From NCBI RefSeq assembly GCF_039555335.1, contig NC_092628.1:59631547-59695546 (forward strand): a stretch of 64,000 nucleotides of DNA, in the 5' to 3' direction. Below the pieces are notes generated by a model. The model did no database searches, had not been told where the DNA came from, and saw only the letters and a list, made by a program, of their open reading frames with translations. The DNA comes from Amphiura filiformis (Eukaryota > Echinodermata > Ophiuroidea > Amphilepidida > Amphiuridae). Shown here one piece after another: positions 6,228 to 54,600 of the stretch; the first letter of the stretch is position 1; every line of letters starts with the position of its first letter. A program made the position numbers and the translations under genes.

Positions 6228-8254
6228 TCACTCCAAAGCAAATACTTTGACTCCACTCTCATTTCCTGTCCATCTTCCCTGGCTCACCAGCAACTTGGGA
6301 CGACCATCTTCTTCACTTGATGTAATCCCCGTACCCCAGCTGACTATATTAGCGATCATACCCAAATACTTCCCAGTCGATGCACAGAAGCAGTACACAC
6401 CACTGTTAAGAGCAAAGTTGTTCACAAAGATAAGATCATGAGCGACGCAGAGTCCTGTAGGATACCACATGTCTGGCGATAATCCTGTAGGTATGCTACA
6501 GTTATGAAGGAGTATCCTTCTTGATCGTACATATTCACAGCATGTTCTTCATAGGAACTTGCTACGATAACTGATTGAGCTGTCACCTGGATATACCATG
6601 GTTGTATATCCACTTGTATGCTACTTATATGTGTACCATCCAGACGATGCTTACTGATGTATTTGGATTTGATGTCACCAACAAGAACATGTTGAGTGGC
6701 AGCATCAACAGTGATGCCAATAAGACTGGATTCTTCATCTTCCTGATTGGAAGGCACGTTGCTAGGAGATACTGCAGGAAACTTATATTGCAAGGTACCA
6801 TCAGCATTGAAGACTTCCACCAAATCTGCAAGCCCAGTGACAAAGTAGAGGCCATTAGCACTAACAGCAATCCCATGAGTACCTCCACTATTTGACCTTC
6901 CCCTTGTACCTTGTATTGGAAATTTAAACTCCCCCAGTTTGTTGTACACAGCGACTCGACAGGCTCCAATATCTGCAACAGCAATATCACTGTTTGGATG
7001 AACTACAATACCTCTACCTTGGTTTATCTGACGATGAGAAGCGAAGTGCTTCAGTAACACCCATGTACCCAACTCTTCACTACGCCTTGGGGTAAGATAA
7101 CCAAGAGGTGGAACTGAACAGCTGCTTGATGAACTCGAGTAAGCAGCAAACCTTACTCCTGCAGATTCATTGCAGAATTTTGCAGGTTTCAAATTGGCCA
7201 GCTGTTGAAGTGTATCAGTTAATGTTGCATAAAGTTCAGCAGTAGCATAAAAGGAGCTTGAGCTTGTCGCTTGACTGACCATATCAAGAGCATTCTTAAG
7301 GCGAGCTTGGTGGAACAGAAGGTCTTCAAGGTGCTTATTCATTGCAGTAGATTGCTCCATTTCATGCCTCTTCAGTGACTTATCAAGATCCTGCTTTCTC
7401 TTATCAAGTGTCACCAACATCTGTGCTCGTGCGACCTGTGAGGACTCATCGATTCCATCAAAGGCTTTCTGTACAGAGTCTTTGAACTCATCTTTTGTCT
7501 TTTTCGCTTCATCAATCGCATCACCGATTTCTTTCGTCATCTGTTGACACTGCTCTGCTAGTTCCTTGATTCGTTCTTGTTGATTAGTGTCACTCCCTGG
7601 TAGATCTACGTAAGTATGACTTCCTGATGGGTGCGTTTCTTCACTACAAACTTTGCAAATTGGAATATTGCAAGTATAGCAAAACAGCTGCAGAGTCTCT
7701 CCCTTGTGCACTTCACAAAACTGCTCCTTGGGTTTGGAGTTAAAATCAACAGTCCCTGATTTCAACTCCTTCAAGGTGCAGACACGGTGGCTTTTGAGCA
7801 CTCGAACAGTCTTGTGTGCATCATAACATTTCTCACAAAGAAAGTCCTTGCATTCTAGGCACCTGGCCACTGCTATTAAAGTAGAATCATTACATGATGT
7901 GCAAGGAATCAACTTCTCTTGCAGGGATCTCCTGTCCTTCAAAGTTGTTATGTAGAAATTGGACACAACCAAACTCTCTAGGCCAGAGGGTGGTATTTGG
8001 AAGCTCTTTTTACACATTGGACATTGGATTGACTTTCTAGGTACTTGGCTGCTTTGAGCTAGTCGTTGCATACAAGGAAAACAGAAAGAATGAAGGCATG
8101 GGAAAGCTCTAGGATCGGTCATCGTACGAAGACAGATGCTGCATTGGATGAGACCTGCAATTTCTTTGTCCTCCTCTTCATCTTGATCTTCTCTTCCTTG
8201 GTGCTGCTCACGCATGAACCGCTCAAATATTTTCTGACCAGGTTTATCTGCCAT
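6228..8254 (-). CDS. TRIM-type E3 ubiquitin ligase (RING, two B-boxes, coiled coil, NHL-like C-terminus), one apparent frameshift
   Basis: A single coding exon of about 675 residues once one frameshift is allowed. Visible in order: RING finger at residues ~38-81 (C38, C41, C53, H55, C58, C61, C78, C81); a first B-box-like zinc cluster ~118-156; a B-box 2 starting C180-x2-H183 and ending near 216; a Lys/Glu/Gln-rich coiled coil ~226-345; then beta-propeller-like NHL repeats from ~400 (phrases such as GRGIVVHPNSDIAVAD and THGIAVSANGLYFV). This order is that of TRIM2/3/32/71-class proteins: the RING recruits a ubiquitin E2, the coiled coil dimerises, and the propeller binds partners or RNA. The orthologue cannot be assigned. 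The first frame terminates at 6422. From about 6491 downward the next frame continues the propeller (MWYPTGLCVAHDLIFVNN...) to a stop at 6228. A single-base indel near 6491 therefore breaks the gene, or is an assembly error. The start ATG follows directly after TTTTCAG, a 3' splice site, so a 5' UTR exon should lie upstream (above 8260). Confidence 0.88.
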
Positions 8255-8260
8255 CTGAAA

Positions 8261-9215
8261 ATTATATAAAAAATATTTACATTCATTGGCTGCAGTTCAA
8301 TCAACTTTCAGTTTCAAGTCGTAATAGACTATGCCAGTTGAAATCCATACACCCTCTGTGGAAGTGACAACTGACAATATAGGGAAAATGGAGTGAGTAT
8401 ACATGACTAACCCTAACCCAACCAAGTCTCACTAAAGCTCACTCAGCAGGAAACAGACTAGGAGTGTGAGAGTTGATCAGTCAATTTGAGAAAGTACTAC
8501 GATGTAGTACGAAACGTCATTGAGGTATGTTTATAACATCTTTATACCGAAATACTTTTGGATTTGTACACCAGAACTTTTGTAAATAATGCTCTATAAA
8601 TGGTTAGGAAAACACTACAGAAATGTTCATATGCAAATTTTGCAAAAGGCAACTTTTTTGGAGACTTGATCATGAATTCATGTATACACTGTAGACATAT
8701 ATATAGTGAAAATTGCACTTTTCTTAAAGCTATACTCCCTAGCCCTAATATTCTGGTCATAGTAACTGTTTTTACTTTTACTACCACCTGGCACTTTACA
8801 TTGAAAATGTGGGAGGGAATTGCATGAATAAACCAGAACAAAAGTAGAAAGCACTTCAATGGTTGAATGAACCAATACAAATGTGTGTTGGGTTGCTAAT
8901 ATAAATAACCACTTGAGAACACACAATTGTTGGTCATTTCTAAATACTGTATTACAGAAATGCGAATTGCACGCATTATCACAGTCTGTGGAAATCGCCG
9001 CCGTATTTGCATACTGAACATGCGCACAATTTGCTGTTTTGCAAAAGCAACTGGGTATAGACTGACCCCGAGACTGACGTCCTCAGTCGATCAACGTTCA
9101 CTAGTAAGCATTACACACATCCTGGGAGCTCTCCACTAAACCAATGCATCATTCATGTTCCGATAAAAGAAGCCTTGTCTATATTTTGTGCTCCTATGTG
9201 GACAGACGCTACACA
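8261..9215. other. Non-coding region upstream of the TRIM coding exon
   Basis: It probably contains the 5' UTR intron and promoter of the TRIM gene, but no specific 5' exon could be fixed. No other coding sequence is seen. Confidence 0.4.
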
Positions 9216-17400: not shown

Positions 17401-20400
17401 TTTCAGAAGTCAACACCAAATAGCAATTACGATTACTATGATGACTACTTAGACTGATTTCAAAATCTGAATAAAAGCTCAAGTATTTCTCAGAGCCTAA
17501 AATGTACTAATAACCAAGGTATTGTCATAGATCAGATGATGCAAGTAACATATTATATGAATCTTTACAAGTCAATAGTCCAAAGAGTCATCGGACATTG
17601 AAATAAACCCTAATCCTTGCCCTAATCCTAAACTTCACCCTAACCTAACCTTTAACCTAAGTCCTAATCCTAAATCCTAACCCTAAGCATGAATTTGGCC
17701 ATAATTCAAAAATACAGATTTGCAATTTTCTTCTCATTTTGTGGAAACAGGTTTCATTTTTGTTCAAAAATTAACAGCCACTTGAAATTAATAAGAAAGC
17801 CAAATGCATTGGTTTCAGTATGATAAACTTTCTTACTCACAGCATACAAGGTCTGTTTTGATCTTTCAGGACAGTCTTGGGTGGAGTTGTATCTGAAAAG
17901 GAAAGAAATATGATGTGTAAAATTTGATATTAAACAGTGTGAAAAAATGAAAACTTACTCAGGATAAATTGCACCTGTGCAGACTTTGCAAATGTGGACC
18001 TTTATCCCAATAAAAACACTTACATCCCACATGTGGACAGAACTCCCTCAAAATTTAGTTTTGGGTGTTATTTTTGAACAGTTTGACATAGAAATGTGGT
18101 TCTTTTGTTAAGTTTTGCTATGTCATTTGGACCTTCTTGGTTACATTTTAACATGTTTACCCTGAAAAGTGGATATTTTGGTCAAGGGGGCTATGTGCCT
18201 GATCCCATTGTATACTCACATAGATAAAACTTGTCTGATGAGTCTCCGAGATGTGACTTAACAAATTCACTTACTGCTTCAACTGTAAACAAAACAAAAG
18301 CATACAATCTTAGTGATGTCCAGCAAATCAAAACAAATCAAATCAAATCAAAACAAGTCTTTGACCTTTAACGCAAGAAATCCTTTGCAGATGAAACTAC
18401 AGTGAAAATTCCAATTGAATAAACACAGCCTGACATATTGTGATGATTTTTTGCGTACACTGCTCGATGTACGCCAGCGTGTGCGACTGTGCGTGAGTGA
18501 CGCGGACGTGAATCCAACCATGCCAACGCTCTTGTGATTGGTTAGTATTGTATCCAAGGTTGTGCGTTCGCATTGTAGTTTGGACTATAATGCGATCACG
18601 GTTGGATCGAATACAGCTGTTGAAAGCTGTGTTCATTCAATTGGAATTCTTAATGTAAGAATACCTCATCATTAATGCGCACATAGTTAATGACAATACT
18701 TCATCATCAATATGCACATTGTTACTGCACATTATTCGACTGGTCAAGAGTGTACAGTGATAATGTGTGCTTATAACATATCGTATAAAAGAGTCCACTT
18801 TGTTTGCACTTTTGAATCTAGAAACCATTTCTGTATTATGGCAGCTCTTGGAAAGAACATTGACATTGACAGAACAAACTGGTTTAAAAGTCTGGAAAAT
18901 TTAACACTACATGTATGAGACTTACCTTTCTCCTGAGGTCTAAAGAATCCTTGTAGGATGAGCTTATCAGGGAAATGAATCCTAACTACCACCTGTAAAT
19001 ACAATCATAAATTTAGTTTATTTCAAATAACATTCTTTCTTTCTGTCTCTCTCCCCTCTCTCCAGTGCAGTAGCCAGCGGGCAGCTGCTGCCCCCTGAGA
19101 AGTCTTGCTCCCCCTCTTTCCCCCACCCCTATAGGAACAGATGTTGGCCACCCTGACATTTAAGATTTTAGGCCTTTTTGTACTTTTTAGCCATTTGATT
19201 TACCATTTTCATCAAAGTTTGCCCCCCTTGAAAGTTGCCTTCCCCCTTTGCCCATCCTCAGAAAAAGTGCTAGCTACACCACTGCCTCTCACTCTCACTT
19301 TCCTCTCTATGGAGTTTCTTTATTCAACTGGATACACACATTGCCTTACCATGGACTTTTTAAGTTTAAACAACAAAGTGAAAGTCACTATAACAGCTTT
19401 AACTGTGGAAGTTGTCATAATGCAGTTTATGTTATTTTTTTTATTTAGAAACACTGTCCAGGAACCGTGGACATCTAGTTTAACAGTTTCTGTGCGTCTA
19501 CTAATTGTATGTACACAGATTTCTCATGTGTGCTAGTGTTCACAAAACCACAAACACACACCCACATAAATAACATAAAATATTATTTGTGATTAAATTC
19601 TTACCTTTGGATATCTTTGCATTTCCCTTAGTTCCCTTGCTTCTCTCATTGCCTTGGTTTCTAATCCTTGCTCTCCAATTCTTACCTTTGGATATCTTTG
19701 CATTTCCCTTAGTTCCCTTGCTTCTCTCATTGCCTTGGTTTCTAATCCTTGTTCTCCCATTCTTACCTTTGGATATCTTTGCATTTCCCTTAGTTCCCTT
19801 GCTTCTCTCATTGCCTTTGTTTCTAACCCTTGCTCTCCCCAGTGCTGTACGGTGCAAAAACTGATTGAGGAGCCAATGGCTCCTAACTTTATAAATTTAG
19901 GCGCCCAAATTTTGCTCCCAGGTAAAAATTCTGAGGTGCCAACGTAAACTGAACAGCCACATGTGTTGAATGTTCATAGCTGCTGTACTCTGATCTACAT
20001 ATTCCCATTGAATGCTACATACTTCATACGCAGCATGTACATTGTAGGCCTATATGTTTTCCAGGAAGTCCCCATTGAGACATGATGATAAAGGCATATT
20101 CATATACATTCGTACCGTACTCTTGAATGCTACATTACATACATGTTTTGTTTTTGGCGATTAAAAGCTTCAGCAGTTGGTCGCCATTGGCGCCAGGGAT
20201 TGAATATTTGGTCGCCATCAGCAAAAATCTAGTCGCCAATGCGCCTAAAATGGTCGCACCGTACAGCACTGGCTCTCCCATTCTTACCTTTGGATATCTT
20301 TGCATTTCCCTTAGTTCCCTTGCTTCTCTCATTGCCTTGGTTTCTAATCCTTGTTCTCCCATTCTTACCTTTGGATATCTTTGCATTTCTCTTAGTTCCC

Positions 20401-21982
20401 TTGCTTCTCTCATGGCCTTGGTTTCTAATCCTTGCTCTTCCATTCTTACCTTTGGAAATATTTGCATTTCCCTTAGTTCCCTTGCTTCTCTCATTGCCTT
20501 GGTCTCTAATCCTTGCTCTCCCATTCTTACCTTTGGATATCTTTGCATTTCCCTTAGTTCCCTTGCTTCTCCCATTGCCTTGGTTCTAATCCTTGCTCTC
20601 CAATTCTTACCTTTGGATATCTTTGCATTTCCCTTAGTTCCCTTGCTTATCTCATTGCCTTGGTCTCTAATCCTTGCTCTCCCATTCTTACCTTTGGATA
20701 TCTTTGCATTTCCCTTAGTTCCCTTGCTTCTCTCATTGCCTTGGTTTCTAATCCTTGTTCTCCCATTCTTACCTTTGGATATCTTTGCATTTCTCTTAGT
20801 TCCCTTGCTTCTCTCATTGCCTTGGTCTCTAATCCTTGTTCTCCCATTCTAGCACTGTCAATAAATTAATATCACATTATTTTGTAAACAATCGTTAATA
20901 TTGGATGAAACAAGAAATTCCATTAAATATTCTTTTATGTATTTTGATATATAATTATAATACCGACACTACACTATTACAGACTTAATTCTGTTAGAAA
21001 AATGCACTGACAATTTCATGTTAGATGTCCATATTCCAAATGGAGTCACCCATTCAGTATTAAAAACCCATTTGAAAATCACACTCCCTGTGTGGGAGAT
21101 TAAGACCATGTCTTCCCTATAGGGGTTGTATGGATTTCAACTAGAATAGCCCTATCTGATTCCATGGTTTGAGTTCAATTGCTCCTGTGGTTTGGAATCT
21201 AGAAGCAAAAAAGTGTAGCACAATGGCCCACAGAACAGGACAAGTAGTATACCACCATGGGAGATTACACTACCATGTTTTGGATCACTTATAATTTAAT
21301 GGAAATATATGTGACCCGTTCTGATAAAACCAGGAACAAGTCGCATTTTTGACATTTCATGATTTGAATAAAAATGTAAGCACGGGACAATAAGCTTCAA
21401 AATGATACCAAAATTATAAACATAACATCAATACTTTTCAAGATATATAATTTGTAAATGATACCTTGGTATTTTTGCCAAACTGCTATCCTGAGAAATG
21501 GGCTCTACACAGGATTGAATAGGGATTATCATAGTTCAACTGTCACTTATTGATTAAATAAACCTCTTTTTAATAAGTACTTTCAAGGATTTGAAAGTCC
21601 ACTCAGTCCCAAGGTCAAATACCATGAAATTAAAAATTCCAAAATTTGATTTTTTTTTATGGGAATGTTATCTTCAAAGGCCTATAACTCAAAAACATGC
21701 CTGGCGAATTGTACCGGGTTTTGTTGGGGCTGGTCACATATTATTACTGTGGTTATGTAAAAAATATGAGCTTTCTTCAACAACAATCACACATTAAATG
21801 ACTTGCTACTTATATCTAACCCTCACCCAGCCATATACCAACCTTTGAGTTCTGAGATCACTATACATCTTCCTGACATCAGAGACAGTGACATCAAAGA
21901 ATTCTTCAGGTACATCACCAACTTGAGCTTCTTCTGGTAGGCTAGCACTTGTATTGTACACAATGGGCAATCTATCACATGG
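14478..21982 (-). CDS. ASPSCR1: ASPSCR1 exons 9-17: extended UBX module and C-terminus
   Basis: Exon 9 (21982-21843) encodes PEEFFDVTVSDVRKMYSDLR. Exon 10 is the repeated helix exon. Exon 11 (18992-18926) encodes VRIHFPDKLILQGFFRPQE, the first strands of the UBX fold. Exon 12 (18282-18220) encodes FVKSHLGDSSDKFYL, exon 13 TPPKTVL, exon 14 (17155-17104) LCPAAVIHFG, exon 15 (16431-16359) YLSESTLNQVDTLMKADELV, and exon 16 (15377-15172) a Ser/Thr-rich tail ending VPKWFKV. Exon 17 (14488-14478) gives GKK and stop. The human order is the same, so the p97-binding module is complete apart from the exon 13 indel. Confidence 0.9.
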
Positions 21983-31459: not shown

Positions 31460-33480
31460 ATTCACTGGTCTCTTGCACTATCTGATGACCCAGAAGAAGC
31501 TTGCAGCAACAAATACCGCTATTATCAGTGATGCAATGGAGATTTTCACACCAGCAAAGCTTTTCAAGAAGACTGGTGACGACACGAGTTAAGGTTTGAT
31601 GACCACTGCAGCAACCACTAAGAAGCGACGCTTATTCAGGAAGCTAAAAAAGAGCAACACCAACATGACCAAGGGAAGCAAGGATGAGTTTACAAAAGCT
31701 AGAAAGGAGTACAATCATGCAGAGAGGGTATAGCCAGAAGAAGCTATAACAACAAGTTGAGGAAAGAACTCTCAGATAGCAGCTTCAGCAGCAAGAAATG
31801 GTGGAACACTGATAACACCCTGTCTGCTAAGTGCATCAGAGTTGATATACCAGTGCTGAATGATGGGCGTCAAGTCTACCCTATGCATCAAAAGACAACA
31901 TTTTGTCAGACCTTTGCCGATAAATGTCAGCTTTAATAGCAGCGCAGAACATTCTGCTCCTGAAGTTCAGTATTAAGCAATATGCTCAATGGAAAAGATA
32001 GCCTTCAAGGTCAAAGATGTTAGGAGGCTTCGTAGGAATCTGCAACCAGATAAAGATACTGGTCTTGATGAAATCCCTGCAAGAGTCCTGACGGAGTGCA
32101 GCGCAGAACTTGCAAAACCATTCAGCCTGCTGTTCGAGCTTTGCTACTCCAAGGGAGTTTTCCCGAGCCACTGCATCTGTCATCTCTATTCACAAGAGAG
32201 ATTCGAAATCTAATCCATCTCTGTACCGCCCCATCTCTACTCTGCATCTCTCTGCTCTGCATCATCAGCAAGGTCATGGAGGCTGTTATACAGAACCAAC
32301 TTCAGAAGTACCTCCTTGGAAACCAACTGGTGTCAGATAGACAGTTTGGATTTAAGCCACACCATAGCACAGCTGACAACCTCAACATTCTGACCCACGA
32401 GTGGTACAACTCCCAGGACAGAGGCAACGAAGTGCGCCTGATTGCCCTGAACATCAAAGGAGCATTTGACAAGGTCTGGCATAATGGTCTTTGCTCAAAA
32501 CTCATGGCAAAATGAATATCCGGCAAGCTGCTCACCTGGATTAGTTACCTGACAGATTGTTCCATCAAAGTTGTCTTATTTGGCCAGTCATCAAGTACTT
32601 CCTCCATCAATGCATCAGTTCCCCAGGGGTCAATATCGGGCCCACTTTTGTTCTCTGTCTTCATTGATGACCTTGATGATGAATGTGAAAACCAACTCTA
32701 CCTCTACGCAGATGATTCCACCTTGTTTTTGGAGATTACATCTAGAGACAACCCTGAAGCCGTTACTGCTATCCTGAACAGAAACTTGTAGAAAATGAGG
32801 ATCTGGGCAGACAGATGGAAGGCGACCTTCGAACCATCGAAATGTGAGGCAATGACAATATCAAGAAAGAGGAATCCAACCAAGCTAGATCTTCTATTTG
32901 GTATCACCAAACTGGCTGAGAAGGAGGAGCTGGAGATGTTGGAAGATACTCTCTAGTCGACAGCAAGCTGACCTTGACAAAGCACATTTGTCTCATCCGT
33001 GTATAAGGCTCAAGTTCGCAGTGTCATTGTCTTGGATGAGTGCCAGCGCCACTATACCACTCTAGGATTACTAGACTTTATCCAAAGGAAGGCCCTTCGA
33101 ATCATAGGCGTGAGCGAAGAGGAAGCAAGCACTAGCACCGAGATCAGTGCTTCAGGTAGGCACAAACACACAAGCTTGCGTTCATTTTTGTTCATGATCT
33201 CGGTGGAGTAGTCGGAGACATTATCTGATGACGGTGCTTCATCCTTCAAGATCCTGATCTGATGCATCCTTCAGTTGTCCCACAGCCTGACCTGGAGGAG
33301 AAAGAACCGTCTGTCAAAGTTCTACTTGAATAGTTGACGCCATGGCTGTGCTCCAGAGTATGAAAAAGACACAAACCATGATGAAGCTGTGAGATTTTCA
33401 GAATACATTCAACAAACATGACAAATGCATTGAAAAGATGATGGATGGCAATATGATGAGGGTCGAGTTGTGCTTGATTT
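31460..33480 (+). mobile_element. Decayed CR1/Jockey-like non-LTR retrotransposon
   Basis: Successive plus-strand frames give the inter-domain region (KKWWNTDNTLSAKC), the start of the RT (DTGLDEIPARVL, LCYSKGVFPS), ISKVMEAVIQNQLQKYL with QFGFKPHHSTADNL, the palm NIKGAFDKVWHNGL, SVPQGSISGPLLFSVFIDDL, the catalytic LYADDSTLF and a C-terminal IQRKALRIIGV. Stops and frameshifts interrupt it repeatedly, and no endonuclease is recognisable. It is a 5'-truncated, non-functional copy. Confidence 0.88.
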
Positions 33481-42400: not shown

Positions 42401-42679
42401 AGCATATTGGTGATGATCTATATTCTCAAGTTTTACTGAAATATCTTGACAGTAACCATAAAGACTGATTGTATTTTATTCTGTTTTTTCATTCCAGGAG
42501 AAGGAATTCAATACAGCAATATCAATGTTCCCTTCTCAGTAGATGATGACTTGACATTTCTTCACATCCTTCTCATGTTCATGGTAGATATTGTTTTCTA
42601 TTCATCTGTGTGCTGGTATGTGGAGGCTGTTTTCCCTGGTGATTATGGAGTGCCTCAACCATGGTACTTCCCATTCACG
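35569..42679 (+). CDS. abca3: ABCA exons 1-7: first transmembrane domain
   Basis: Exon 1 encodes the cytosolic start, the first membrane helix ([15 protein letters not shown]) and the beginning of the extracellular loop. Exons 2-3 complete that loop ([37 protein letters not shown]) and enter the helices. Exons 4-6 give [16 protein letters not shown] (human MMGLSSWLHWSAWF), [22 protein letters not shown] and [13 protein letters not shown]. Exon 7 ends with the last TMD1 helix and [17 protein letters not shown], nearly identical to human ABCA3. Phase is continuous. Confidence 0.93.
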
Positions 42680-45600
42680 GTGAGTGCAATCATTGGTAGA
42701 TATTGTTTTCTATTCATCTGTGTGCTGGTATGTGGAAGCTGTTTTCCCTGGTGATTATGGAGTGCCTCAACCATGGTACTTCCCATTCACGGTGAGTGCA
42801 ATCATTGCACAGAATTAGAGAAGGAGAACCGGGACTCCCTATACCGCCACGTACAATCGAGCCGTCAGCTATGGGGAGAAAATTGGGGGTATTCGGGTCC
42901 TTGCCGACGGTGCGCGGAGACGAACGAAAACAATTATGCGCCTCATCTGAAGCGCCTTGGTACTCGCGTGCAGGTCGCATCAAGTGCGTCTCTCAAATGC
43001 GCACATCATCCATGTCGCGCTTGATGACGCATTTAATGCCCCGAGCGCATTCCGAGGGAAACCGAATACCCCCAATTTTTGCTCCATGCCTGTATCAAGA
43101 TGGCGGTCGAGTCCTGGTTCTCTGGTTTTAATTCTGTGAATCATTGGTAGATATTGTTTTCTATTCATCTGTGTGCTGGTATGTGGAAGCTGTTTTCCCT
43201 GGTGATTATGGAGTGCCTCAACCATGGTACTTCCCATTCACGGTGAGTGCAATCATTGGCAGATATTGTTTTCTATTCATCTGTGTGCTGGTATGTGGAG
43301 GCTGTTTTTCCTGGTGATTATGGAGTGCCTCAACCATGGTACTTCCCATTCACGGTGAGTGCAATCATTGGTAGATATTGTTTCTATTCATCTGTGTGCT
43401 GGTATGTGGAAGCTGTTTTCCCTGGTGATTATGGAGTGCCTCAACCATGGTACTTCCCATTCACGGTGAGTGCAATCATTGGTAGATATTGTTTTCTATT
43501 CATCTGTGTGCTGGTATGTGGAGGCTGTTTTCCCTGGTGATTATGGAGTGCCTCAACCATGGTACTTCCCATTCACGGTGAGTGCAATCATTGGTAGATA
43601 TTGTTTTCTATTCATCTGTGTGCTGGTATGTGGAGGCTGTTTTCCTGGTGATTATGGAGTGCCTCAACCATGGTACTTCCCATTCACGGTGAGTGCAATC
43701 ATTGGTAGATATTGTTTTCTATTCATCTGTGTGCTGGTATGTGGAAGCTGTTTTTCCTGGTGATTATGGAGTGCCTCAACCATGGTACTTCCCATTCACG
43801 GTGAGTGCAATCATTGGTAGATATTGTTTTCTATTCATCTGTGTGCTGGTATGTGGAGGCTGTTTTTCCTGGTGATTATGGAGTGCCTCAACCATGGTAC
43901 TTCCCATTCACGGTGAGTGCAATCATTGGTAGATATTGTTTTCTATTCATCTGTGTGCTGGTATGTGGAGGCTGTTTTCCTGGTGATTATGGAGTGCCTC
44001 AACCATGGTACTTCCCATTCACGGTGAGTGCAATCATTGGTAGATATTGTTTTCTATTCATCTGTGTGCTGGTATGTGGAGGCTGTTTTTCCTGGTGATT
44101 ATGGAGTGCCTCAACCATGGTACTTCCCATTCACGGTGAGTGCAATCATTGGTAGATATTGTTTTCTATTCATCTGTGTGCTGGTATGTGGAAGCTGTTT
44201 TCCTGGTGATTATGGAGTGCCTCAACCATGGTACTTCCCATTCACGGTGAGTGCAATCATTGGTAGATATTGTTTTCTATTCATCTGTGTGCTGGTATGT
44301 GGAGGCTGTTTTTCCTGGTGATTATGGAGTGCCTCAACCATGGTACTTCCCATTCACGGTGAGTGCAATCATTGGTAGATATTGTTTTCTATTCATCTGT
44401 GTGCTGGTATGTGGAGGCTGTTTTCCCTGGTGATTATGGAGTGCCTCAACCATGGTACTTCCCATTCACGGTGAGTGCAATCATTGGTAGATATTGTTTT
44501 CTATTCATCTGTGTGCTGGTATGTGGAGGCTGTTTTCCTGGTGATTATGGAGTGCCTCAACCATGGTACTTCCCATTCACGGTGAGTGCAATCATTGGTA
44601 GATATTGTTTTCTATTCATCTGTGTGCTGGTATGTGGAGGCTGCTTTTCCTGGTGATTATGGAGTGCCTCAACCATGGTACTTCCCATTCACGGTGAGTG
44701 CAATCATTGGTAGATATTGTTTTCTATTCATCTGTGTGCTGGTATGTGGAGGCTGTTTTCCCTGGTGATTATGGAGTGCCTCAACCATGGTACTTCCCAT
44801 TCACGGTGAGTGCAATCATTGGTAGATATTGTTTTCTATTCATCTGTGTGCTGGTATGTGGAGGCTGTTTTTCCTGGTGATTATGGAGTGCCTCAACCAT
44901 GGTACTTCCCATTCACGGTGAGTGCAATCATTGGTAGATATTGTTTTCTATTCATCTGTGTGCTGGTATGTGGAGGCTGTTTTCCCTGGTGATTATGGAG
45001 TGCCTCAACCATGGTACTTCCCATTCACGGTGAGTGCAATCATTGGCAGATATTGTTTTCTATTCATCTGTGTGCTGGTATGTGGAGGCTGTTTTCCCTG
45101 GTGATTATGGAGTGCCTCAACCATGGTACTTCCCATTCACAGTGAGTGCAATCATTGGCAGATATTGTTTTCTATTCATCTGTGTGCTGGTATGTGGAAG
45201 CTGTTTTCCTGGTGATTATGGAGTGCCTCAACCATGGTACTTCCCATTCACGGTGAGTGCAATCATTGGTAGATATTGTTTTCTATTCATCTGTGTGCTG
45301 GTATGTGGAGGCTGTTTTCCTGGTGATTATGGAGTGCCTCAACCATGGTACTTCCCATTCACGGTGAGTGCAATCATTGGTAGATATTGTTTTCTATTCA
45401 TCTGTGTGCTGGTATGTGGAGGCTGTTTTCCCTGGTGATTATGGAGTGCCTCGTGAACCATGGTACTTCCCATTCACGGTGAGTGCAATCATTGGCAGAT
45501 ATTGTTTTCTATTCATCTGTGTGCTGGTATGTGGAAGCTGTTTTTCCTGGTGATTATGGAGTGCCTCAACCATGGTACTTCCCATTCACGGTGAGTGCAA

Positions 45601-48600
45601 TCATTGGTAGATATTGTTTTCTATTCATCTGTGTGCTGGTATGTGGAAGCTGTTTTTCCTGGTGATTATGGAGTGCCTCAACCATGGTACTTCCCATTCA
45701 CGGTGAGTGCAATCATTGGTAGATATTGTTTTCTATTCATCTGTGTGCTGGTATGTGGAGGCTGTTTTCCCTGGTGATTATGGAGTGCCTCAACCATGGT
45801 ACTTCCCATTCACGGTGAGTGCAATCATTGGTAGATATTGTTTTCTATTCATCTGTGTGCTGGTATGTGGAGGCTGTTTTCCCTGGTGATTATGGAGTGC
45901 CTCAACCATGGTACTTCCCATTCACAGTGAGTGCAATCATTGGCAGATATTGTTTTCTATTCATCTGTGTGCTGGTATGTGGAAGCTGTTTTCCCTGGTG
46001 ATTATGGAGTGCCTCAACCATGGTACTTCCCATTCACGGTGAGTGCAATCATTGGTAGATATTGTTTTCTATTCATCTGTGTGCTGGTATGTGGAGGCTG
46101 TTTTCCTGGTGATTATGGAGTGCCTCAACCATGGTACTTCCCATTCACGGTGAGTGCAATCATTGGTAGATATTGTTTTCTATTCATCTGTGTGCTGGTA
46201 TGTGGAGGCTGTTTTCCTGGTGATTATGGAGTGCCTCAACCATGGTACTTCCCATTCACGGTGAGTGCAATCATTGGTAGATATTGTTTTCTATTCATCT
46301 GTGTGCTGGTATGTGGAGGCTGTTTTCCTGGTGATTATGGAGTGCCTCAACCATGGTACTTCCCATTCACAGTGAGTGCAATCATTGGCAGATATTGTTT
46401 TCTATTCATCTGTGTGCTGGTATGTGGAAGCTGTTTTTCCTGGTGATTATGGAGTGCCTCAACCATGGTACTTCCCATTCACGGTGAGTGCAATCATTGG
46501 TAGATATTGTTTTCTATTCATCTGTGTGCTGGTATGTGGAGGCTGTTTTTCCTGGTGATTATGGAGTGCCTCAACCATGGTACTTCCCATTCACGGTGAG
46601 TGCAATCATTGGTAGATATTGTTTTCTATTCATCTGTGTGCTGGTATGTGGAAGCTGTTTTTCCTGGTGATTATGGAGTGCCTCAACCATGGTACTTCCC
46701 ATTCACGGTGAGTGCAATCATTGGTAGATATTGTTTTCTATTCATCTGTGTGCTGGTATGTGGAGGCTGTTTTCCTGGTGATTATGGAGTGCCTCAACCA
46801 TGGTACTTCCCATTCACGGTGAGTGCAATCATTGGTAGATATTGTTTTCTATTCATCTGTGTGCTGGTATGTGGAGGCTGTTTTCCCTGGTGATTATGGA
46901 GTGCCTCAACCATGGTACTTCCCATTCACGGTGAGTGCAATCATTGGTAGATATTGTTTTCTATTCATCTGTGTGCTGGTATGTGGAGGCTGTTTTCCTG
47001 TTGATTATGGAGTGCCTCAACCATGGTACTTCCCATTCACGGTGAGTGCAATCATTGGTAGATATTGTTTTCTATTCATCTGTGTGCTGGTATGTGGAGG
47101 CTGTTTTCCCTGGTGATTATGGAGTGCCTCAACCATGGTACTTCCCATTCACAGTGAGTGCAATCATTGGCAGATATTGTTTTCTATTCATCTGTGTGCT
47201 GGTATGTGGAGGCTGTTTTTCCTGGTGATTATGGAGTGCCTCAACCATGGTACTTCCCATTCACGGTGAGTGCAATCATTGGTAGATATTGTTTTCTATT
47301 CATCTGTGTGCTGGTATGTGGAGGCTGTAGATCTCCTGGTGATTATGGAGTGCCTCAACCATGGTACTTCCCATTCACGGTGAGTGCAATCATTGGTAGA
47401 TATTGTTTTCTATTCATCTGTGTGCTGGTATGTGGAGGCTGTTTTTCTTGGTGATTATGGAGTGCCTCAACCATGGTACTTCCCATTCACGGTGAGTGCA
47501 ATCATTGGTAGATATTGTTTTCTATTCATCTGTGTGCTGGTATGTGGAGGCTGTTTTCCTGGTGATTATGGAGTGCCTCAACCATGGTACTTCCCATTCA
47601 CGGTGGTGAGTGCAATCATTGGTAGATATTGTTTTCTATTCATCTGTGTGCTGGTATGTGGAGGCTGTTTTCTCTGGTGATTATGGAGTGCCTCAACCAT
47701 GGTACTTCCCATTCACGGTGAGTGCAATCATTGGTAGATATTGTTTTCTATTCATCTGTGTGCTGGTATGTGGAGGCTGTTTTCCTGGTGATTATGGAGT
47801 GCCTCAACCATGGTACTTCCCATTCACGGTGAGTGCAATCATTGGTAGATATTGTTTTCTATTCATCTGTGTGCTGGTATGTGGAGGCTGGTGTTCCTGG
47901 TGATTATGGAGTGCCTCAACCATGGTACTTCCCATTCACGGTGAGTGCAATCATTGGTAGATATTGTTTTCTATTCATCTGTGTGCTGGTATGTGGAGGC
48001 TGTTTTCCTTGTTGATTATGGCGTGCCTCAACCATGGTACTTCCCATTCACGGTGAGTGCAATCATTGGTAGATATTGTTTTCTATTCATCTGTGTGCTG
48101 GTATGTCTGTGTGCTGGGAGGCTGTTTTCCTGGTGATTATGGAGTGCCTCAACCATGGTACTTCCCATTCACGGTGAGTGCAATCATTGGTAGATATTGT
48201 TTTCTATTCATCTGTGTGCTGGTATGTGGAGGCTGTTTTCCCTGGTGATTATGGAGTGCCTCAACCATGGTACTTCCCATTCACGGTGAGTGCAATCATT
48301 GGTAGATATTGTTTTCTATTCATCTGTGTGCTGGTATGTGGAGGCTGTTTTCCTTGGTGATTATGGAGTGCCTCAACCATGGTACTTCCCATTCACGGTG
48401 AGTGCAATCATTGGTAGATATTGTTTTCTATTCATCTGTGTGCTGGTATGTGGAGGCTGTTTTCCTGGTGATTATGGAGTGCCTCAACCATGGTACTTCC
48501 CATTCACGGTGAGTGCAATCATTGGTAGATATTGTTTTCTATTCATCTGTGTGCTGGTATGTGGAGGCTGTTTTCCCTGGTGATTATGGAGTGCCTCAAC

Positions 48601-51600
48601 CATGGTACTTCCCATTCACGGTGAGTGCAATCATTGGTAGATATTGTTTTCTATTCATCTGTGTGCTGGTATGTGGAGGCTGTTTTCCCTGGTGATTATG
48701 GAGTGCCTCAACCATGGTACTTCCCATTCACGGTGAGTGCAATCATTGGTAGATATTGTTTTCTATTCATCTGTGTGCTGGTATGTGGAGGCTGTTTTCC
48801 TGGTGATTATGGAGTGCCTCAACCATGGTACTTCCCATTCACGGTGAGTGCAATCATTGGTAGATATTGTTTTCTATTCATCTGTGTGCTGGTATGTGGA
48901 GGCTGTTTTTCCTGGTGATTAGTGCTGTTTTCCTGGTGATTATGGAGTGCCTCAACCATGGTACTTCCCATTCACGGTGAGTGCAATCATTGGTAGATAT
49001 TGTTTTCTATTCATCTGTGTGCTGGTATGTGGAGGCTGTTTTCCGTGGTGATTATGGAGTGCCTCAACCATGGTACTTCCCATTCACGGTGAGTGCAATC
49101 ATTGGTAGATATTGTTTTCTATTCATCTGTGTGCTGGTATGTGGAGGCTGTTTTCCCTGGTGATTATGGAGTGCCTCAACCATGGTACTTCCCATTCACG
49201 GTGAGTGCAATCATTGGTAGATATTGTTTTCTATTCATCTGTGTGCTGGTATGTGGAGGCTGTTTTCCTGGTGATTATGGAGTGCCTCAACCATGGTACT
49301 TCCCATTCACGGTGAGTGCAATCATTGGTAGATATTGTTTTCTATTCATCTGTGTGCTGGTATGTGGAGGCTGTTTTCCTGGTGATTATGGAGTGCCTCA
49401 ACCATGGTACTTCCCATTCACGGTGAGTGCAATCATTGGTAGATATTGTCTTCTATTCATCTGTGTGCTGGTATGTGGAGGCTGTTTTTCCTGGTGATTA
49501 TGGAGTGCCTCAACCATGGTACTTCCCATTCACGGTGAGTGCAATCATTGGTAGATATTGTTTTCTATTCATCTGTGTGCTGGTATGTGGAGGCTGTTTT
49601 CCTGGTGATTATGGAGTGCCTCAACCATGGTACTTCCCATTCACGGTGAGTGCAATCATTGGTAGATATTGTTTTCTATTCATCTGTGTGCTGGTATGTG
49701 GAAGCTGTTTTTCCTGGTGATTATGGAGTGCCTCAACCATGGTACTTCCCATTCACGGTGAGTGCAATCATTGGTAGATATTGTTTTCTATTCATCTGTG
49801 TGCTGGTATGTGGAGGCTGTTTTCCCTGGTGATTATGGAGTGCCTCAACCATGGTACTTCCCATTCACGGTGAGTGCAATCATTGGTAGATATTGTTTTC
49901 TATTCATCTGTGTGCTGGTATGTGGAGGCTGTTTTCCCAGGTGATTATGGAGTGCCTCAACCATGGTACTTCCCATTCACGGTGAGTGCAATCATTGGTA
50001 GATATTGTTTTCTATTCATCTGTGTGCTGGTATGTGGAGGCTGTTTTTCCTGGTGATTATGGAGTGCCTCAACCATGGTACTTCCCATTCACGGTGAGTG
50101 CAATCATTGGTAGATATTGTTTTCTATTCATCTGTGTGCTGGTATGTGGAGGCTGTTTTCCTGGTGATTATGGAGTGCCTCAACCATGGTACTTCCCATT
50201 CACGGTGAGTGCAATCATTGGTAGATATTGTTTTCTATTCATCTGTGTGCTGGTATGTGGAGGCTGTTTTTCCTGGTGATTATGGAGTGCCTCAACCATG
50301 GTACTTCCCATTCACGGTGAGTGCAATCATTGGTAGATATTGTTTTCTATTCATCTGTGTGCTGGTATGTGGAGGCTGTTTTTCCTGGTGATTATGGAGT
50401 GCCTCAACCATGGTACTTCCCATTCACGGTGAGTGCAATCATTGGTAGATATTGTTTTCTATTCATCTGTGTGCTGGTATGTGGAGGCCCTCTTCCTGGT
50501 GATTATGGAGTGCCTCAACCATGGTACTTCCCATTCACGGTGAGTGCAATCATTGGTAGATATTGTTTTCTATTCATCTGTGTGCTGGTATGTGGAGGCT
50601 GTTTTTCCTGGTGATTATGGAGTGCCTCAACCATGGTACTTCCCATTCACGGTGAGTGCAATCATTGGTAGATATTGTTTTCTATTCATCTGTGTGCTGG
50701 TATGTGGAGGCTGTTTTCCCTGGTGATTATGGAGTGCCTCAACCATGGTACTTCCCATTCACGGTGAGTGCAATCATTGGTAGATATTGTTTTCTATTCA
50801 TCTGTGTGCTGGTATGTGGAGGCTGTTTTCCCTGGTGATTATGGAGTGCCTCAACCATGGTACTTCCCATTCACGGTGAGTGCAATCATTGGTAGATATT
50901 GTTTTCTATTCATCTGTGTGCTGGTATGTGGAGGCTGTTTTCCCTGGTGATTATGGAGTGCCTCAACCATGGTACTTCCCATTCACGGTGAGTGCAATCA
51001 TTGGTAGATATTGTTTTCTATTCATCTGTGTGCTGGTATGTGGAGGCTGTTTTCTCTGGTGATTATGGAGTGCCTCAACCATGGTACTTCCCATTCACGG
51101 TGAGTGCAATCATTGGTAGATATTGTTTTCTATTCATCTGTGTGCTGGTATGTGGAGGCTGTTTTCCCTGGTGATTATGGAGTGCCTCAACCATGGTACT
51201 TCCCATTCACGGTGAGTGCAATCATTGGTAGATATTGTTTTCTATTCATCTGTGTGCTGGTATGTGGAGGCTGTTTTCGTGAGTGATTATGGAGTGCCTC
51301 AACCATGGTACTTCCCATTCACGGTGAGTGCAATCATTGGTAGATATTGTTTTCTATTCATCTGTGTGCTGGTATGTGGAGGCTGTTTTCCTGGTGATTA
51401 TGGAGTGCCTCAACCATGGTACTTCCCATTCACGGTGAGTGCAATCATTGGTAGATATTGTTTTCTATTCATCTGTGTGCTGGTATGTGGAGGCTGCTTC
51501 CCTGGTGATTATGGAGTGCCTCAACCATGGTACTTCCCATTCACGGTGAGTGCAATCATTGGTAGATATTGTTTTCTATTCATCTGTGTGCTGGTATGTG

Positions 51601-54600
51601 GAGGCTGTTTTCCTGGTGATTATGGAGTGCCTCAACCATGGTACTTCCCATTCACGGTGAGTGCAATCATTGGTAGATATTGTTTTCTATTCATCTGTGT
51701 GCTGGTATGTGGAGGCTGTTTTCCTGGTGATTATGGAGTGCCTCAACCATGGTACTTCCCATTCACGGTGAGTGCAATCATTGGTAGATATTGTTTTCTA
51801 TTCATCTGTGTGCTGGTATGTGGAAGCTGTTTTCCCTGGTGATTATGGAGTGCCTCAACCATGGTACTTCCCATTCACGGTGAGTGCAATCATTGGTAGA
51901 TATTGTTTTCTATTCATCTGTGTGCTGGTATGTGGAGGCTGTTTTCCCTGGTGATTATGGAGTGCCTCAACCATGGTACTTCCCATTCACGGTGAGTGCA
52001 ATCATTGGTAGATATTGTTTTCTATTCATCTGTGTGCTGGTATGTGGAGGCTGTTTTTCCTGGTGATTATGGAGTGCCTCAACCATGGTACTTCCCATTC
52101 ACGGTGAGTGCAATCATTGGTAGATATTGTTTTCTATTCATCTGTGTGCTGGTATGTGGAGGCTGTTTTTCCTGGTGATTATGGAGTGCCTCAACCATGG
52201 TACTTCCCATTCACGGTGAGTGCAATCATTGGTAGATATTGTTTTCTATTCATCTGTGTGCTGGTATGTGGAGGCTGTTTTTCCTGGTGATTATGGAGTA
52301 CCTCAACCATGGTACTTCCCATTCACGGTGAGTGCAATCATTGGTAGATATTGTTTTCTATTCATCTGTGTGCTGGTATGTGGAGGCTGTTTTCCCTGGT
52401 GATTATGGAGTGCCTCAACCATGGTACTTCCCATTCACGGTGAGTGCAATCATTGGTAGATATTGTTTTCTATTCATCGGTGTGCTGGTATGTGGAGGCT
52501 GTTTTCCTGGTGATTATGGAGTGCCTCAACCATGGTACTTCCCATTCACGGTGAGTGCAATCATTGGTAGATATTGTTTTCTATTCATCTGTGTGCTGGT
52601 ATGTGGAGGCTGTTTTCCCTGGTGATTATGGAGTGCCTCAACCATGGTACTTCCCATTCACGGTGAGTGCAATCATTGGTAGATATTGTTTTCTATTCAT
52701 CTGTGTGCTGGTATGTGGAAGCTGTTTTCCCTGGTGATTATGGAGTGCCTCAACCATGGTACTTCCCATTCACGGTGAGTGCAATCATTGGTAGATATTG
52801 TTTTCTATTCATCGGTGTGCTGGTATGTGGAGGCTGTTTTCCCTGGTGATTATGGAGTGCCTCAACCATGGTACTTCCCATTCACGGTGAGTGCAATCAT
52901 TGCATTTCGGTGTTTAAGAATACTTTGCAGTTATGTTTAAATATCAAAGAGTCAAATTGTAACATGTTCTGGATTTTGAAGGAATGGCTGACTTAAAACA
53001 AATTAAGGTTTCATTCAAGTAAGTGAGATTCACAATACAGTTTTAATGGTTTGGGAATCAGTATACTTTTCAGAAAATCATTGTAAAATAATAAAATGTC
53101 ATGATTTAACAGGGGTATGGAGGATATTATAATATGATTTCATGAGTTTGATTGATTTCACTTGGTTTCATGATAATTTTCTTGATTTCTTAATTTTTCT
53201 CAGCAATCATATTGGTGTGGAAGTCCTACAGTAACTGAAGTCTATGATGCAGAAGGTTTCATGATGGAATCTAAAAATGCAGAGTTCTTTGAAGCTGATC
53301 CCAGTGGTGTTGGTGTTGGTATTAGTATTAGGAATCTCAAGAAGGTAAATAATCAATGTAACATAATAACATAGGAGTTGTAAGATGTGGGTTGAAACAG
53401 CAAAAATATATCTAGATCTTATTTTACGACCCAAGTGATACACAGGGTGGAACCAAGGGGTACCACACCCCACAACCCTGCAAACTCTGCTAATTTGTGA
53501 GTACTAACATCCAGTTTTAGCCTCTAAGCTCTTGAACCCTGGGTAATGTTCCAAACTGTTTTAAATCCTGGATCCACCCCTGACAGCTCATGATACAGGG
53601 ATTTACCTTTTGCACAGTGGTGTAGCGTCATAGGGGCACGGGGTTGGGGCCCTCCATCGATTGCAAAATTTAGAAAATCCCATAGGAAAATGGTCAAAAA
53701 ATGACTTGTGCCCAATCAGACCCGGTGCCCCCCAATCATGGTCGGTGCCCCCCCCCCCAATACGATGACCCATGCTACGCCACTGCTTTTGCAAATGTCA
53801 ATGTAGTCATGGTAGTACTTCAGAAGCCAACAAAATAGTTGAGCAGGTGAAGGAAGATGTGGTGATCACCTTTCAGTATCGCAGTACAGCCTGTCTCAAA
53901 AAAAGTTGTGCAAGTGAAAAGCGCCCTCTTTGGCAATTAGAAAATACCGTTGTGACACGATGCTTACATCAACGTCACGGGCATAGTCTTAGCTCTCAAA
54001 TACCGTTTGTTCTGTTCAATTTGCTTGTTTTAATCTCGAGATATGCTTTATTAACTACGAAAGGGTAAAATCACAATTGTGCCACTTTTACTAGGGAAGA
54101 GAGCTTTGCATGTAAATAAGCGATAGCATCAAGTTTATCAAGAGTTCCTTTGTGAAATCAAAAGAATGCATCAATTACACAACACAAATGTTTTTTTACT
54201 GTTTTCACTATTTCATCATGATGCAGGAAATAATGATTCTCTTTTTCCACAAAAAAGATAAATAAATATTTCACATTCTGCTGTAAAATTAAATATAATG
54301 TGCACGTCAATGGATTTATCATGGTAAGTACTGTTCTCTTAGTTACTCAAGACATGTTAAAAGACAAAAAAATATTGCACACTAAGGTCCGCATGCACAA
54401 AAGAGTTAGAGAGGGTCTAAAGTTAGACCTGGTCTAACTGGAATTAAATTCTACCAGGAATGGTCCTTTACTCTTATTTCCTTCCTAGAGTAGCTAGCAA
54501 ATTCTAAAGATTTTAATGCAACATTCAAAAATAATAAAAAATAACTTATGCAAATGTAAAGGAAAATGTCCTTTCTCATGGTACTAAATTCCACGTAGAT

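Follow-up and report, generated by a model that had tools for sequence, protein, structure and literature searches.

A coding-exon end and its 5' splice site repeated in 89 units within an ABCA transporter intron of Amphiura filiformis

How can a gene be spliced when one of its introns begins with dozens of copies of the same 5' splice site and ends in a single strong acceptor? The question is raised by a 64,000-nucleotide window of the Amphiura filiformis genome (RefSeq assembly GCF_039555335.1, contig NC_092628.1, forward-strand positions 59,631,547 to 59,695,546), in which the end of a coding exon of an ABCA transporter gene and the donor that follows it form a tandem array. An earlier note, made from the sequence alone, had described about 88 repeats of this exon end and donor. 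Our analysis recovered the array and counted 88 extra copies, or 89 units when the exon end itself is included. It added to that description an inserted element, a second array in ASPSCR1, a mutation patch in the unit, and four copies with acceptor-like sites. Positions are window coordinates (Table 1), and the copy number is that of one assembly.

Tandem Repeats Finder (TRF) detected a 112-bp period at 42582-42807 and 43139-52902, with the score for a 335-bp period slightly above that for 112 bp. Cutting the array at its own junctions yielded 89 head-to-tail units, the first being the exon end itself, with lengths of 112 bp (59 units), 111 bp (25 units), 114 bp (two units), and 115, 121, and 133 bp (one unit each). 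The splitting agreed with the proposed composition of the unit, the final 96 coding nucleotides of the exon followed by 16 intronic nucleotides, GTGAGTGCAATCATTG, and the latter are intact in 89/89 units. The claim that each copy recreates CACG/GTGAGT (slash, exon/intron junction) held in part: GTGAGT is present throughout, but the ACG/GTGAGT context is found in only 84/89 units, the others reading ACA/GTGAGT (4/89) or GTG/GTGAGT (1/89). There are 35 distinct sequences among the 89 units, and the exon copy is the same as the commonest type (19/89). The intron now measures 10,524 bp, compared with 317 bp without the array and the insert that it contains. Chance does not explain an array of such length. 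We rejected its reading as a repeated protein because 112 is not a multiple of 3 and the frame does not stay open. An Rfam search gave no match at the gathering score, and a pattern search for relatives in viral contigs matched six stretches, none of which was confirmed.

The exon is counted as the seventh ABCA-like coding exon by eye, on the basis of stop-to-stop frames and known ABCA motifs rather than a gene-model alignment. The exon end at 42679, the donor GT at 42680, and the acceptor ...CTCAG/ before 53204 lie where the earlier note had placed them. When joined, this exon and the next form one open frame, whose peptide is similar to human ABCA3 (E = 1.9e-25) as well as ABCA1, ABCA4, and ABCA7. 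This match across the join supported the proposed ABCA identity, and frames farther downstream hold ABC_tran (5.6e-19) and ABC2_membrane_3 (6.9e-35). The exons had also been said to be in phase only through the first donor; when each of the 89 donors was joined to the next exon, donor 1 alone gave an open frame, and the other 88 joins stopped at index 84. Starting at its acceptor, the exon would be 182, 294, 745, or 857 nt long if it ended at donor 1, 2, 3, or 4, respectively, and use of donor 2 would add 112 nt and a stop. The standard donor scores 10.75 of a possible 12 bits, a value reached by 3 of the 2927 other GTs on the plus strand, whereas the donors of the ACA copies are weaker (6.95 bits).

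We consider it probable that the array arose by a tandem duplication across the exon/intron boundary, which then expanded and is tolerated by use of the first donor, mainly as a near-neutral feature. A short duplication over the boundary would have placed a second exon end and donor in the intron, and this second copy could have expanded to 89 units by unequal exchange or similar copying. The upstream-most donor, the only one beside the exon's acceptor, would be used, and the array would be tolerated because the other 88 donors leave with the intron. Support comes from the predicted exons, which are in frame through donor 1 alone and match ABCA proteins across the join, and from donor 3, which at 745 nt lies past the usual exon-definition size of ∼300 nt. 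A 331-bp element with inverted ends separates copies 2 and 3 and puts donor 3 at this distance, so that every donor from the third on is beyond that size. Because the donor scores so high, donor 2 is probably used now and then, which would yield at low level a 294-nt exon with a frameshift and a stop. The length of the array may also affect the splicing of the next exon or expression, as reported for the human ABCA7 repeat discussed below.

Table 1. Features of the ABCA and ASPSCR1/TUG arrays (window coordinates; slash, exon/intron junction; TSD, target-site duplication; MITE, miniature inverted-repeat transposable element)
Feature	Position	Strand	Details
ABCA exon	42498..42679	+	Seventh ABCA-like coding exon; the repeat unit takes its exonic part from the last 96 nt (42584-42679)
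First 5' splice site	42680..42695	+	GTGAGTGC and following bases; 16 intronic nt of the unit; taken as functional
Exon-end and donor array	42584..52902	+	89 units, modal length 112 bp, one insert inside; TRF, unit splitting
MITE-like insert, 331 bp	42808..43138	.	Ends CACAGAATTA.../...TAATTCTGTG; 8-bp TSD AATCATTG (42800-42807, 43139-43146)
Mutation patch	42628-42641 of copy 1 and equivalent in other units		Around TTTTCCCTGG; the 89 copies show 17 forms, 13 single-copy
Rest of intron	52903..53203	+	Unique sequence, with the sole strong acceptor of the intron
Next ABCA exon	53204..53344	+	QSYWCG...RNLKK
ASPSCR1/TUG exon	20773..20854	-	82 nt; repeated in the second array apart from its first few bases
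Second array	19597..20850	-	Ten exon and donor units CCAAAG/GTAAGAAT, 7 before the insert, 3 after
MITE-like insert, 432 bp	19840..20271	.	In the ASPSCR1 array; CAGTGCTGTACGGTGC inverted ends; 8-bp TSD GGGAGAGC (minus strand)
Next ASPSCR1 exon	18926..18992	-	VVVRIHFPDKLILQGFFRPQEK

The same architecture, smaller and in another gene, recurs within the window at 20854-19597 on the minus strand. The spliced ASPSCR1 exons match the human TUG structure (E = 2.6e-34) and carry a UBX domain (8.6e-08). Donors in this second array are spaced 81 bp apart, with one spacing of 80 bp, and a 432-bp insert lies between the seventh and the eighth. Donors 1 and 2 of the 10 give open joined frames; donors 3 to 10 lead to a stop. 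Copy 3 contains a stop and copy 4 is one base short, and the 25 ABCA units of 111 bp represent frame-breaking 1-bp losses. Given such base losses and stops, no coding constraint is apparent in the extra copies.

The flanks at the breakpoints of both arrays make the ancestral single copy readable. The shared stretch is 2 bp long in ABCA and 5 bp long (AGAAT) in ASPSCR1, a pattern that, judged from these flanks, would fit ordinary microhomology-flanked duplications. Within the ABCA array, an A at site 96 is followed by a C at site 2 of the next copy in 4/4 cases, although C at site 2 occurs in only 7/89 copies. Copies with a variant at site 2 tend to lie within 20 units of one another (p = 0.0045), as do those with a variant at site 96 (p = 0.039; neither value is adjusted for multiple testing). 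Such recurring linked variants are as expected from block copying inside the array.

Single-copy changes are concentrated in one patch, with 13 of the 20 falling in 14 of the 112 unit positions (binomial 6e-08), a number that no 14-bp window anywhere in the unit reached in 20,000 uniform draws; one further patch form is present in two copies. The three common forms of this TTTTCCC patch show little clustering, with p = 0.04 in one of nine tests, and are not associated with site 42, which lies 8 bp away (p = 0.24). The 15 rare forms are themselves clustered in the array (within 10 units, p = 0.005). The patch looks like recurrent mutation at one spot of the unit, to which consensus error may contribute. 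A hairpin was rejected as its cause, as the single-stranded DNA folds no better than shuffled sequences (z = 0.61; 146/200 fold as well). The RNA fold of three ABCA units gave z = −1.15. Outside the patch, none of the seven single-copy changes falls in the 16 intronic bases, an outcome expected by chance with a probability of ∼0.29. The intact donors are thus no evidence of selection, and recent copying is sufficient to account for them.

Both inserts combine terminal inverted repeats with an 8-bp target duplication, as hAT-type MITEs do, and we take them to be hAT-like by TSD length alone. The TSDs of both inserts (42800-43146 and 19832-20279, duplications included) span +9 to +16 from a donor, a matching offset with a chance of ∼1 in 81 that was spotted post hoc.

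Several points weigh against the duplication account. Given the strength of the donor, later copies could compete with the first, and in classical competition experiments between identical, duplicated donors the winner can be the one closer to the acceptor, an outcome that would favor late donors here. No convincing higher-order periodicity of ABCA unit types was found at lags 1 to 30 (lowest p = 0.088, at lag 15), so that the mode of expansion cannot be read from it. Finally, the occurrence of this architecture twice in 64 kb suggests more than purely random placement. TRF reports four tandem loci with units of at least 50 bp in the window, and two of the four cross a donor; if 30 donors per 64 kb are assumed, a random 100-bp unit would cross one ∼4% of the time, making this roughly a 1% event, by a back-of-envelope and post hoc estimate that depends on the assumed donor number.

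This coincidence leads to the broader idea that exon-end and donor arrays form a recurring class in this genome: duplications across 5' splice sites would be captured and expanded time and again because the first donor hides them from translation, and the shared insert offset and the mutation patch would reflect local break-and-repair on the units. We hold this idea to be unlikely on present evidence. The two strands together hold 451 donor-like sites, 204 of which recur as a copy within 4 kb, and outside the two gene arrays the listed sites with nearby copies all lie in a minisatellite at 1-1400, which is itself diverged, with periods of about 98-265 bp and no gene link within the window. If the idea were true, the class would provide natural series of identical competing donors and a source of intron growth, and new exons could arise through acceptor-creating changes such as those in 4/89 ABCA copies.

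The closest known system that we found is the variable number tandem repeat (VNTR) in intron 18 of human ABCA7. According to De Roeck et al. (2018, PMC5954066), this VNTR abuts exon 18 and includes its donor, consists of 25-bp units that start with GT, and reaches about 9.7 kb in some alleles. Its first GT is the canonical donor, retention of one unit occurs at about 2 ± 1% and causes a frameshift, and longer VNTRs are accompanied by increased exon 19 skipping and decreased expression. As described there, the ABCA7 VNTR shows that the first of many tandem donors can prevail and that array length can have consequences. The likeness is close, since both are intronic tandem arrays in an ABCA gene that adjoin an exon and include its 5' splice site. 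However, by the same account the ABCA7 unit is 25 bp, intronic only, and C-rich, whereas the Amphiura filiformis unit is 112 bp and holds 96 coding bases. Moreover, the exon that follows the ABCA7 array lies inside the first nucleotide-binding domain, but the Amphiura intron is located before that domain; from the protein match and the paper's description rather than a gene-level alignment, the two intron positions are probably not equivalent.

Other systems resemble the array in single respects. Internal tandem repeats that cross exon-intron boundaries in human segmental-duplication paralogs can alter splicing (Genome Biol 2009, PMC2812944), and a boundary-crossing tandem duplication has also been described in potato intron gain (PMC4974935). 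The former share the boundary crossing but stress the formation of novel introns, whereas here tens of donors stand in one existing intron. Likewise, intron gain by tandem duplication (the Rogers model; Hellsten et al. as cited) reuses existing splice signals; in Amphiura, in contrast, an old intron was enlarged, and the donor alone was duplicated without an acceptor, so that the pairing of a new donor with a new acceptor, and with it a new intron, is absent from the ABCA array. UBC also has many tandem splice sites in one gene, where AGGT serves as both donor and acceptor inside a coding repeat (dual-specific splice sites; PMC10809524), whereas the standard Amphiura unit, CACG/GTGAGT, has no AG at the site, and its boundaries read ACG/GT in 84, ACA/GT in 4, and GTG/GT in 1 of the 89 units. 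A search of the open-access literature found no array in which tens of units join a coding-exon end to its donor. The array differs from these systems in its largely coding-exon unit, its 89 copies, the insert parting two copies from the rest, and the second instance in another gene.

Could the array instead be a functional splicing device, in which redundant donors slow or tune intron removal, act as decoys, or hold U1 and so suppress premature cleavage, lowering or delaying ABCA output? The 89 GTGAGT donors are far denser than the three equally strong plus-strand GTs elsewhere, and the correlation of ABCA7 VNTR length with exon 19 skipping and lower expression (PMC5954066) makes tuning plausible by analogy. 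Nevertheless, outside the hot patch the donors are no more conserved than the rest of the unit, their context is altered in 5/89 units, and the ABCA7 isoform that retains one unit is unchanged with VNTR size (PMC5954066). We regard a dedicated device as doubtful. Its variant in which U1 is bound in bulk, which the earlier note had put forward, is itself unlikely, as U1 is so abundant that the nascent transcripts of one gene could hold only a minute share of the nuclear pool. It is somewhat less probable still that a short array was over-expanded or misassembled. Although copy number in such arrays is often misassembled and consensus errors at short runs might account for part of the TTTTCCC patch, a second TTTTC run, at unit positions 11-15, is changed in only 2/89 copies. 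The diversity of the 35 unit sequences with their recurring linked variants, the exact 8-bp TSD of the insert between copies 2 and 3, and the independent array in another gene also argue against an artefact.

The statement that the copies have no acceptor applies to the standard unit, whose AGs score only −1.12 to 1.11 bits, but not to the four copies in which ACG has become ACA. These carry a CACAG/T site (AG ending at 45142, 45927, 46372, and 47154) that scores 5.69 bits, by a rough matrix, within the 3.29-11.82 bits of nine inferred real acceptors from both genes. Each could define, with a strong donor 110 or 111 nt farther on, an internal mini-exon, as though exon birth were under way. However, 245 of 2964 plus-strand AGs outside the array score at least as high, so that the sites are plausible acceptors but not special, and the mini-exons of 110-111 nt and their exonic frame are candidates by sequence only. 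We judge exon birth here to be very improbable, and return to tandem duplication with first-donor use as our preferred explanation.

Most work on the choice among identical donors has used two or three engineered sites. With the ABCA array, a natural gene presents 84 identical strong donors before one acceptor, and its reading frame reports the choice. Alongside the ABCA7 VNTR, a human disease-risk locus of like design, it allows a comparison of how array length relates to splicing, and the second array suggests that a search of the genome could yield a dose series.

The window also contains nested inverted repeats that form a long palindrome of about 860 bp (2142-2998), an intronless RING/B-box (TRIM-like) open frame of 624 codons on the minus strand (6422-8296), and a fragment at 32072-32515 that, judged by eye, is reverse transcriptase-like.

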